A stretch of DNA of 38,674 bases. It comes from Patescibacteria group bacterium (GTDB lineage: Bacteria > Patescibacteriota > Minisyncoccia > Phycocordibacterales > JAKFXT01). The stretch covers positions 1-38,674 of the forward strand of contig JAKFXT010000006.1 of NCBI GenBank assembly GCA_021731245.1. The letters are read 5' to 3'. The notes beneath the pieces are model-generated. The model saw only the letters and a list, made by a program, of their open reading frames with translations, did not search any database and was not told where the DNA came from. A program made the position numbers and the translations under genes. Of this stretch, positions 12,206 to 15,348 are shown one piece after another. Position 1 is the first letter of the stretch; each line of letters opens with the position of its first letter.

Positions 12206-13891
12206 GTGATATTATTTATGCAAATGATTAGCTTTGATGAAGATAAGGCCAATAAAAAAGTAGACGATCTCCTAAAAAAAGAGGAGGAGGACCTGGCTGT
12301 AATCCTTTCTCAAAAGTATGGGGTGGAATATTTGGACCTGTCCCGTATTTCAATTGAAACGGACGCTCTACGCCTACTTCCCGAAGACCAGGCTCGCCTT
12401 GCAAAAGTGGCTATTTTTGAAATTACAAATAAAAAATTAAAAATCGCCTCCCTTTCCCCTGAAAGCGACTCCACCAAAAGCGCCTTGGATGATTTAAAAC
12501 GAAAGGGATATGAAATAGAACTTTATATGGTTTCTAAGGCCTCCCTTGAAAGAGCTTGGGCGCGCTATAAAGAAATTTCTTTTGCTTCCGAAACAAAAGC
12601 GGGTGTACTTGATATATCAAATGAAGAAATAGAAAGTTTTCTTTCCAAAGTTCATACGCTCGAAGATGTTGTAAAACTTATTGAAGGAGTGCTGAATCAA
12701 AATAAAAGTTACAGAATTTCTCGCATTTTAGAAATTGTTATTTCTGGAGCTCTCGCTTTGGGAGCATCCGACGTGCACGTTGAACCAGAAGAAACAGATA
12801 CTCGTCTTCGCTACAGATTAGACGGAGTCTTAACAGACATTCTAAGATTTGATAAAGAAACTTTTCAGCTTTTGCTTTCTCGCATCAAACTTCTTTCTCG
12901 TTTAAAACTTAATGTGAAAAATCTTCCACAAGACGGAAGATTTTCTATAAAAGTGTCTGGCGAAGAAATAGAAATTCGTACTTCCCTTTTGCCTGGAGCA
13001 TACAGTGAATCTGTCGTGATGCGCATATTAAATCCAAAATCAATTCAGGTTCCAATGGAAGAATTGGGAATTCCAGAAAAACTTTTTAATATTCTTGACC
13101 ATGAAATAAAAAAGCCAAACGGAATGCTACTAACAACTGGTCCCACAGGTTCAGGTAAAACCACTACTCTTTATGCATTCCTGCGTCGAATACATAATCC
13201 AGAAATAAAAGTAATTACTATTGAAGACCCTATTGAATATCACTTGAAAGGAATTGTGCAGACCCAAGTCGATCACAAGCAATACACTTTTGCTGGAGGT
13301 CTTCGCTCCGCTCTTCGCCAAGACCCAGATGTAATCATGGTTGGTGAAATTCGTGATGCTGAAACCGCAGAAATTGCGATTCAATCAGCTAATACTGGGC
13401 ACTTTGTACTTTCAACTTTGCACACCAATTCTGCTGCTGGTGCTTTTCCTCGTCTCATTGATTTAGACGTAAACCCTAAAATTATAAGTTCAACTGTAAA
13501 TATGGTCTTGGCACAAAGGCTCCTGCGAAAACTTTGTAAAAATTGTGCCAAAGAAATTACTCCGACACCTGAACAAAAAAAGTTTATTGATTCTATTGTT
13601 GATGGAATAACAGACAAGCTAAAAGATTTGCAAACTGAAAAAATTTGGGAAGCTGTTGGCTGTGAGAAATGTAGCGGACTTGGATACAAAGGACGTATTG
13701 GAATTTATGAAGCAATAAAGATGGACGAGCAAATAGATAAAATAATAAATCAGAATCCATCGGAAGCAGAAATAGAAAAAATAGCCAAAACCCAAGGAAT
13801 AATGAATCTCAAAGAAGATGGTGTAGTAAAAGTTTTACAAGGAGTGACAACCTTGGACGAACTTGCGCGTGTTGTGGACCTTGAAATTTAA
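12206..13891 (+). CDS. pilB: Type IV pilus assembly ATPase (PilB/GspE family)
   Basis: LLTTGPTGSGKTTTLYAFLRRI Walker A, ITIEDPIEYHL, RSALRQDPDVIMVGEIRDAETAEIAIQSANTGHFVLSTLHTNSA, C-x2-C zinc site CKNC...CEKC. The ORF track uses GTG 12206; ATG 12218 or 12224 is a more likely start. Confidence 0.95.
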   Translation: MILFMQMISFDEDKANKKVDDLLKKEEEDLAVILSQKYGVEYLDLSRISIETDALRLLPEDQARLAKVAIFEITNKKLKIASLSPESDSTKSALDDLKRKGYEIELYMVSKASLERAWARYKEISFASETKAGVLDISNEEIESFLSKVHTLEDVVKLIEGVLNQNKSYRISRILEIVISGALALGASDVHVEPEETDTRLRYRLDGVLTDILRFDKETFQLLLSRIKLLSRLKLNVKNLPQDGRFSIKVSGEEIEIRTSLLPGAYSESVVMRILNPKSIQVPMEELGIPEKLFNILDHEIKKPNGMLLTTGPTGSGKTTTLYAFLRRIHNPEIKVITIEDPIEYHLKGIVQTQVDHKQYTFAGGLRSALRQDPDVIMVGEIRDAETAEIAIQSANTGHFVLSTLHTNSAAGAFPRLIDLDVNPKIISSTVNMVLAQRLLRKLCKNCAKEITPTPEQKKFIDSIVDGITDKLKDLQTEKIWEAVGCEKCSGLGYKGRIGIYEAIKMDEQIDKIINQNPSEAEIEKIAKTQGIMNLKEDGVVKVLQGVTTLDELARVVDLEI

Positions 13892-13921
13892 ATTCAAAAA
13901 TTAAGGCTTTAATTAGAAAGT

Positions 13922-13964
13922 AAAAAATGAAAAAGCGCCACTACCAAAAAATTATGGTGGGCGT
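13922..13964 (-). terminator. Rho-independent terminator (minus strand)
   Basis: CGCCCACCAtaattttttGGTAGTGGCG then CTTTTTCATTTTTT on the minus strand. Confidence 0.75.
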
Positions 13965-14219
13965 AGAGTGAAAAAAGATAAATTCAGTTCATTATTCTCT
14001 AAGGGATACTTTAAATGCGAAGCATAAAAAGTTAAGAATTTTCCTGAGGATAGAATCAGCGTTTTACCAATAAAGGTAAAGACCAAAACGTCCTTGCGAA
14101 AACACCAGTAAGTCCGGGGACTCAATTCCTTAGAGAATATTGTACTGAATTAAACCTTATGTTTGTTACTTTGGGCTCTTTTCTACAAAAGAAAAGGCCT
14201 GACTTAAGTTAACAGGCTA
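13922..14219 (-). ncRNA. Candidate structured non-coding RNA with own promoter and terminator, family unknown
   Basis: Minus-strand TTGACA-N17-TACACT (14249-14254 and 14226-14231); long closing helix AATTCAGT...ATTCTCTAAGG (13981-14004) with CCTTAGAGAAT...ACTGAATT (14128-14151); internal hairpins; terminator at 13935-13964 followed by CTTTTTCATTTTTT. Confidence 0.65.
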
Positions 14220-14225
14220 TTAGGA

Positions 14226-14254
14226 AGTGTAGCATAAAGAAGTCTTGCTGTCAA
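14226..14254 (-). promoter_or_regulatory. Sigma70-type promoter for the candidate ncRNA
   Basis: TTGACA-N17-TACACT on the minus strand. Confidence 0.8.
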
Positions 14255-14334
14255 GCTTTTTTAGCGATCATTTTCCTTTCTTTTTTGGCACCCTTTTTCG
14301 CGTGATACAATGGCCGTAACTGCGATATTTTAAT

Positions 14335-15348
14335 ATGAGCAAAAAAATAGACCCGCAAAACGGAAAAGATACTCATTTAGACCAAGCTTTAAGGCCTTCT
14401 TCTTTCGGTGAATACGTGGGGCAAGAGAAGATAAAGAAAAATTTACAAATATTACTATCTGCAGCCAAAGAACGTGAACATGCCCCAGAGCATTTGCTCT
14501 TTTATGGCCCACCTGGACTTGGCAAAACAACATTGGCTCACCTAATAGCCAAAGAGATAGGGAGCGGCATAAAAATTACATCGGGCCCAGCAATCGAAAA
14601 GGTGGGCGACCTCGCTTCAATTCTAACCAACCTCACACCAAAGGATGTTCTTTTTATAGATGAAATACATCGTTTAAACAAAACGATTGAGGAGGTGCTC
14701 TACCCCGCTATGGAGTCTGGGGTTTTGGATATTATTATTGGCAAAGGCCCATCAGCAAGAACCATACAACTTGAGCTTCCTCCTTTTACTTTAATCGCGG
14801 CAACCACTCGTATGGCACTTCTTTCTTCACCGCTGCGAAGTCGTTTTGGCGGTGGGGTGTTTCGTCTAGAATTTTATACACAAGAAGAAATAGAAAAAAT
14901 TATTGGGCGTTCTGCCAAGTTGCTTGGAGTAGAAGCAGAAAGTGGGGCAATTTCTGAAATTGGCAAGCGCAGTCGCTTCACCCCAAGAATTGCTAATTAT
15001 TTACTAAAGAGATGTCGTGATTTTGCTCAAGTGCAAAAAGAAAAGCTTAGTAAAAAAATTGTTGATGAGGCTCTTTTGCTTTTAGGGGTGGATACTTTGG
15101 GACTTCAAAACGCAGACCGATCTCTTTTAACAATGCTTATTGATAAATTTAACGGTGGCCCCGTCGGTCTTTCCACAATTGCCGCAGCTCTTTCAGAAGA
15201 CGAAGGAACGGTGGAAGAAGTGCATGAGCCATATTTAATGCAGCTCGGACTTTTGGAAAGAACTCCAAGAGGGCGCGTTGTGACCGACAGAGGTTTCGTA
15301 CATTTGGATAAAAAAATAAAAGAAAACTCTCAAGGTAAGTTACTTTAA
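14335..15348 (+). CDS. ruvB: Holliday junction branch migration helicase RuvB
   Basis: LRPSSFGEYVGQEKIKKNLQ, LLFYGPPGLGKTTLAHLIA, LFIDEIHRL, TLIAATTRMALLSSPLRSRF, GPVGLSTIAAALSE. Confidence 0.97.
   Translation: MSKKIDPQNGKDTHLDQALRPSSFGEYVGQEKIKKNLQILLSAAKEREHAPEHLLFYGPPGLGKTTLAHLIAKEIGSGIKITSGPAIEKVGDLASILTNLTPKDVLFIDEIHRLNKTIEEVLYPAMESGVLDIIIGKGPSARTIQLELPPFTLIAATTRMALLSSPLRSRFGGGVFRLEFYTQEEIEKIIGRSAKLLGVEAESGAISEIGKRSRFTPRIANYLLKRCRDFAQVQKEKLSKKIVDEALLLLGVDTLGLQNADRSLLTMLIDKFNGGPVGLSTIAAALSEDEGTVEEVHEPYLMQLGLLERTPRGRVVTDRGFVHLDKKIKENSQGKLL

Follow-up and report, generated by a model that had tools for sequence, protein, structure and literature searches.

Several RNAs described in bacteria invite comparison with the one that we report here. 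6S RNA (RF00013) resembles it in size, in its long closing stem, in being a standalone gene with a strong promoter and in its broad conservation within a lineage, whereas the new RNA has no Rfam match and carries a multi-branched junction, formed by elements that we call P2, P3 and P4, where 6S RNA has an open bubble. Ms1 RNA of Actinobacteria, the relatives of which were recovered via their conserved gene neighbourhood (PMC9130861), is likewise a structured and lineage-restricted RNA, a likeness drawn by description only, but it belongs to another lineage. RNase P RNA and tmRNA share with the new RNA the property of being structured, as housekeeping RNAs, and both sit elsewhere in the genome considered here; divergent forms of RNase P RNA have been described in the CPR (Lui et al. 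2021, PMC8172020). Finally, SRP RNA (RF00169) would similarly be the class-wide housekeeping RNA of a ribonucleoprotein (RNP); it differs from the new RNA, which does not match it and belongs to a lineage without Ffh. Neither ffh nor ffs was detected in Parcubacteria (Nelson and Stegen 2015, PMC4508563).

An RNA Gene in the pilB-ruvB Gap

The window, that is, the whole stretch of 38,674 nucleotides that was analysed, is contig C7 of a genome of 694,538 bases in 22 contigs. Its RuvB protein has its closest relatives in Yonathbacteria, Zambryskibacteria, Nomurabacteria and Kaiserbacteria (Paceibacteria/Parcubacteria), and the class label Paceibacteria that we use is a reading from the names of these relatives. 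The gap of interest is flanked by pilB, coding for a T2SSE/PilB ATPase (12206-13891, plus strand), and ruvB (14335-15348, plus strand), beyond which lie yebC and ruvC. A preliminary description, made from the sequence alone, had placed in this gap the parts of an RNA gene on the minus strand, and every sequence element that it named is present there (table 1). It saw no credible ORF in the gap; across the family, no frame is kept, any one frame is open in at most 6 of 42 sequences and the lengths cover all three residues modulo 3. The 333-nt stretch originally singled out folds with z=-6.1 relative to shuffles and the 190-nt RNA proper (13971-14160) with z=-7.1; no shuffle folds as well as the native sequence, the centroid structure of which is identical to that of minimum free energy.

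That we are dealing with a real structured RNA gene is nearly certain, its identity, strand, structure, conservation and address having been established computationally. Our main reading, to which we give a probability of roughly 0.75, is that it encodes an undescribed, class-wide, single-copy structured RNA of Paceibacteria, most likely acting in trans as the RNA of an RNP.

Table 1. Coordinates of the RNA gene and of its elements in the window
Feature	Position	Strand	Basis or remark
Promoter	14226..14254	-	TTGACA 14254-14249, 17-nt spacer, extended -10 TGC-TACACT 14234-14226
Variable 5' leader, one local hairpin (GGCCTTTTCTTTTGTAGAAAAGAGCC)	14160..14219	-	Fold; spacing in relatives
P0, 5' strand (AATTCAGTAC)	14142..14151	-	Pairs with 13981-13990; covarying flanks
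P1, 5' strand, containing conserved CUCUAAG	14124..14141	-	18 pairs, covariation
P2 hairpin (GAGTCC CC.. GGACTT)	14110..14123	-	6 pairs, covariation
P3 long arm	14047..14106	-	Variable proximal part; its 3' strand continues to about 14035
P3 AGGA/UCCU	14094-14091 with 14050-14047	-	Invariant or near-invariant core of the family
P3 internal loop	C 14090 opposite UA 14052-14051	-	Conserved
P3 helix containing tandem U-G/G-U wobbles	14089-14082 with 14060-14053	-	Beyond it, a variable tip
P4 hairpin (CTTTTTATGCTTCGCATTTAAAG)	14009..14031	-	5 pairs, covariation
P1, 3' strand	13991..14008	-	Alignment of 42 class-wide sequences
P0, 3' strand (13990-13981), then TATCTTTTTT (13980-13971)	13971..13990	-	Putative intrinsic terminator
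Second hairpin resembling a terminator, CGCCCACCA...TGGTAGTGGCG plus T-run	13923..13963	-	Beyond the RNA

Promoter, Leader, and 3' End

The near-perfect promoter of the preliminary description, TTGACA-17-TACACT, is indeed found on the minus strand, in an arrangement that relatives have kept. At 79 loci that were detected with the RNA model only, their neighbours being ignored, the RNA strand has an exact TTGACA in 76, a spacing of 17 nt nearly always and a -10 element that is usually of the extended form TGn-TAnnnT, the mean promoter score being 11.6 versus 8.2 for shuffled sequences. The RNA strand thus has a promoter of its own, as befits an independent gene for a structured ncRNA, and the predicted start of transcription lies at about 14219. 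Among relatives, the distance between the -10 element and the core ranges from 16 to 134 nt; because the leader (14219-14160) varies in this way, the conserved RNA amounts to about 180 nt, and the approximately 300 nt proposed originally must be reduced by their 5' part. The leader, whose length is unconserved, could possibly be cleaved off. We put the folded RNA at about 180-250 nt; the RNA proper, of about 180 nt, is preceded by the variable leader.

At the other end, the RNA is probably released at the U-tract TATCTTTTTT, right after P0, with a 3' end near 13971. A run of T (at least six in eight positions) adjoins P0 in 40 of 78 loci, and because P0 is followed by such a run in about half of the loci, the closing helix would double as terminator. 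The terminator originally recognized, CGCCCACCA...TGGTAGTGGCG with its T-run, does exist, but the primary one is probably P0 with TATCTTTTTT instead; the CGCCCACCA hairpin, further downstream, may serve pilB from the opposite side, or either strand. A separate downstream terminator hairpin was also considered as a feature of the family and was discarded, since it is not reproducible (51 of 78 loci versus 35 of 78 after shuffling); P0 with its U-tract is.

Fold, Covariation, and Strand

The overall fold comprises a two-part closing rod, P0 plus P1, leading to a multi-branched core with P2, a long P3 and P4. Both portions of the interrupted closing helix that had been proposed, AATTCAGT/ACTGAATT and ATTCTCTAAGG/CCTTAGAGAAT, are present on the minus strand, and so are the internal hairpins, except that TTTACC..GGTAAA is no hairpin of its own and instead caps the long P3 stem.

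Lack of covariation in relatives is among the outcomes that the preliminary description named as refuting it, and very strong covariation was obtained when relatives were aligned. In a plain MAFFT alignment of 14 sequences, which was the first and is independent of any model, two-sided changes that keep the pair occur in 20 of the 33 pairs of the consensus fold. Alignments made with covariance models lean towards the structure of the model; with 42 class-wide sequences they give standard pairs in 91.8% of cells versus 74.5% after shuffling, two-sided changes in 43 of 48 pairs and a covariation of 0.538 versus 0.097-0.154 for slid partners, and with 52 mostly order-level sequences standard pairs in 90.4% of cells, 41 of 48 pairs with two-sided changes and a covariation of 0.403 versus at most 0.152. 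Covariation exceeding that of shuffles and slid controls is, like the promoter, a mark of an independent structured ncRNA gene. Considering the helices singly, P1 has 95.6% of its cells paired and 17 pairs with changes on both sides, while P2 (91.0% paired) and P4 (91.9%) have two-sided changes in all their pairs; P3 is weaker in its proximal part and has a distal part of 12 bp. P0, which was derived from flanks outside the modelled core, has a helix score of 18.1 versus 8.1 with the flanks swapped between loci and is better in 76 of 78 loci; at single offsets up to 77 of 78 loci are paired, versus 49.8 after shuffling (offset 5), with up to six types of pair.

The structure is not uniform throughout the family. 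P2 is absent in four members (L022, L127, L128 and L131), two others (L121 and L169) have large insertions, and a further one (L133) carries about 40 nt inserted in apical P3, so that the P3 tip tolerates expansion.

Strand follows from the wobble pairs of P3. The tandem U-G/G-U pairs are conserved in 33 and 36 of 42 sequences, respectively, and since they would be A-C mismatches on the opposite strand, the RNA must be read from the minus strand; accordingly, the model scores 115 bits on this strand of the window versus 33 bits on the plus strand. The inverted repeats between convergent transcription units could by themselves recall a feature of the DNA, such as a bidirectional terminator or a cruciform, without any RNA function. 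This strand-specific conservation of G-U pairs, together with the promoter on the RNA strand and a covarying, multi-branched structure, refutes such a reading in practice and leaves it a negligible probability.

What is conserved is informative also with respect to function. Whereas conservation reaches 90% or more in 23 of 96 paired columns, a single unpaired column among 51 is conserved to at least 80%, namely the C of AGGAC in the P3 loop. The highly conserved columns are nearly all paired, which suits an RNA that binds a protein better than one that acts as an antisense. A regulatory sRNA that base-pairs with mRNAs would account for a standalone gene of sRNA size with its own promoter and a U-tract end, but it should possess a conserved single-stranded seed, which the family does not have beyond that one column. 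Moreover, sRNAs of this kind seldom keep their structure class-wide in single copy, and we consider it very unlikely that the RNA is one of them.

Comparison with Known RNA Families

The Rfam scan that the preliminary description recommended assigned the RNA to no known family, and the same held for 20 relatives. At gathering thresholds, Rfam (release 15) recognized only a tRNA in the whole window, and permissive thresholds added, for the gap as for the 20 relatives, nothing beyond isolated hits attributable to chance, which in the gap stayed sub-threshold.

The vague resemblance of the closing rod to 6S RNA had led to the guess of a highly divergent 6S; a second Ms1-like RNA that binds RNA polymerase as a promoter mimic is a variant of the same idea. 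Size, long closing rod and strong promoter are indeed alike, and a closing stem whose central bubble held hairpins would share the topology of the observed fold. The 6S model, on the other hand, finds nothing in the region 13850-14400 up to E 10, nor in the 20 relatives up to E 1. What had looked like a 6S rod is a rod bearing the P2/P3/P4 junction; helices take up the place of the open bubble, and the main ones have 84-94% of their cells paired with strong covariation. The same genome has, besides, a separate 6S-like candidate elsewhere (L004, G000:C6:18341-18450), with E 7.9e-4 and 25.8 bits, below the cut-off of 46.4; its fold has z=-3.7 and a strong closing stem, GGATCATTTC/GAAATGATCC, and it is perhaps the divergent 6S of the lineage. 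Altogether, a 6S or Ms1-like identity for the RNA of the gap seems quite unlikely. Identity with RNase P RNA or tmRNA was rejected, as neither has a match in the window and the genome has its own copies: that of RNase P RNA (RF00010) lies at C11:19476-19838 (L115), with 85.8 bits against a gathering score of 100, a sub-threshold match that fits the divergent CPR forms (PMC8172020), and that of tmRNA (RF00023) at C6:11523-11898, above the cut-off.

The case of the SRP is different, because here the lineage presents an RNA-shaped gap (RF00169; PMC4508563): SRP RNA was not found in 40 genomes of the order, including the one studied. Could the new RNA be the SRP RNA of the lineage, or a stand-in for it? 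The partner itself is missing, since the M domain of Ffh (PF02978) is absent in the same genome and in all 20 genomes of the order that were searched, and the helix-8 pattern is not seen in the alignments of the family. Other classes are also without Ffh, yet none of their sampled genomes shows the RNA; given that the rest of the phylum lacks Ffh and RNA alike, the RNA does not simply track the loss of the SRP. Replacement of SRP RNA was thus largely refuted by the distribution of Ffh and dropped as highly improbable. In the phylum sample, PF02978 was detected in 1 of 380 genomes and in 14 of 14 controls; the absence of Ffh published for Parcubacteria appears to extend to the phylum.

Distribution, Divergent Copies, and Losses

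A plain DNA search of relatives yielded fragments only, and the family emerged from a collection anchored on ruvB combined with a structure model. One genome (G011) shows a short identity with the window inside its own pilB-ruvB gap; a second apparent match there (L003), 90% identical along 30 bases that lie upstream of rpsL, was set aside as seemingly fortuitous. Upstream of ruvB in named Paceibacteria genomes, the minus-strand side carries the promoter, CUCUAAG...CUUAGAG and AGGAC...UAUCCU. Two covariance models, R1 from 14 sequences neighbouring ruvB and R2 from 52 sequences, match the core of the window (13991-14141, minus strand) with 115 and 111.5 bits, respectively, and find no further copy in its genome.

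Within the order, R1 has matches in 199 of 247 genomes, which cover 130 of 151 genera. R2, run under strict filters on 286 genomes drawn from the class, has matches in 89, which belong to many orders. The RNA was not found among about 350 genomes of the phylum outside the class, and all 17 matches in the phylum sample of 380 genomes fall within it. One copy per genome is the rule. In one genome (G038, L116) two copies lie in tandem (C1:65122-65282 and 65322-65482), near-identical to each other in P3 and P4 and entirely different in P2.

The genomes negative for the models deserve separate consideration. The ruvB match was fetched from 35 of them, of which 31 belong to the order or class; 9 of these 31 had no true ruvB match and 22 a true ruvB locus. 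A divergent copy of the RNA lies upstream of ruvB, on the correct strand, in 16 of the 22 (model R3, filters off, E<0.01, all our E-values being rough because of short calibrations). In some, such as L184, the sequence of P1 has been wholly rewritten (CCGGGCAATG/CATTGCCCGG in L184), with AGGAC...UAUCCU retained. True absence also occurs, for the RNA is missing though pilB and ruvB stay close in G083 (L180), G024 (L185) and G447 (L197), natural deletions that are useful in searching for a partner by co-loss. The RNA is therefore not strictly essential, given that some complete genomes lack it; it is class-wide and dispensable in a few lineages.

Genomic Address

Although neighbours had been ignored in their detection, 74 of the 79 loci have ruvB upstream (divergent) and pilB downstream (convergent) in the same orientation, and the remaining five are at contig ends or miss one neighbour. 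Such faithfulness of address could mean a role in cis, with the RNA regulating its neighbours, pilB as a convergent antisense or ruvB through back-to-back promoters. One might quote in favour of this also the single-contig genome G106 (L210-L247), in which the RNA is missing along with ruvB, yebC, ruvC and the pilB orthologue, all of them present in its congener G027; this may be a block loss or an assembly gap. The association can, however, be broken on either side. The RNA stays beside ruvB without adjacent pilB at four loci (L111, L172, L190 and L192), so that the address is ancestral while a functional link to pilB is not required, and the ruvB-pilB pair stays without the RNA in the three natural deletions. 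In many loci, furthermore, the U-tract would end the RNA ahead of pilB, and a cis-antisense has no need of so structured and covarying an RNA; regulation in cis is, consequently, unlikely. A riboswitch or 5' leader was rejected too, for no co-oriented gene follows directly downstream and the convergent pilB occupies this place in the 74 loci; only L111 departs from this, having a co-oriented gene further along.

Proposed Mode of Action and Significance

How would such an RNA work? An RNP component acting in trans is most likely because what the family has conserved is paired sequence, around the P3 loop and at the base of P1, with no antisense seed. We infer transcription, ends, action in trans and protein binding as follows. 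Transcription would start from the RNA's own strong promoter of sigma-70 type, run away from ruvB and end with release at the U-tract following the closing helix. The molecule, whose P0-P1 rod opens into the junction bearing P2, the long P3 and P4, would operate in trans, which we consider quite probable, and most likely as the RNA component of an RNP. A core protein or machine would dock on the near-invariant P3 element, namely AGGA/UCCU, the internal loop with C opposite UA and the helix containing tandem U-G/G-U wobbles, and on the conserved base of P1. We give docking of a protein through P3 about an even chance. More tentatively, and at rather less than even odds, the RNA could be the core of an RNP found only in Paceibacteria, with a job unlike that of any known bacterial RNA; it would have become fixed in the class ancestor and stayed in single copy since.

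The preliminary description had proposed an uncharacterised, possibly lineage-specific structured ncRNA, and this characterization is borne out by the absence of Rfam matches, the class-wide conservation, the covariation and the conserved minus-strand promoter. Our literature searches, confined to open-access papers, brought up no account of an RNA of this kind. It is new as an RNA family with respect to Rfam release 15 and these papers.

Paceibacteria form a very large and mostly uncultivated class with genomes below about 1 Mb, which have discarded the SRP. That genomes so streamlined keep the address, the promoter and the constrained fold of this RNA class-wide suggests that it likely does something important. 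Our results add to the class an RNA family missing from Rfam, with a covariance model ready for annotation, and make it testable which protein or machine binds the RNA.
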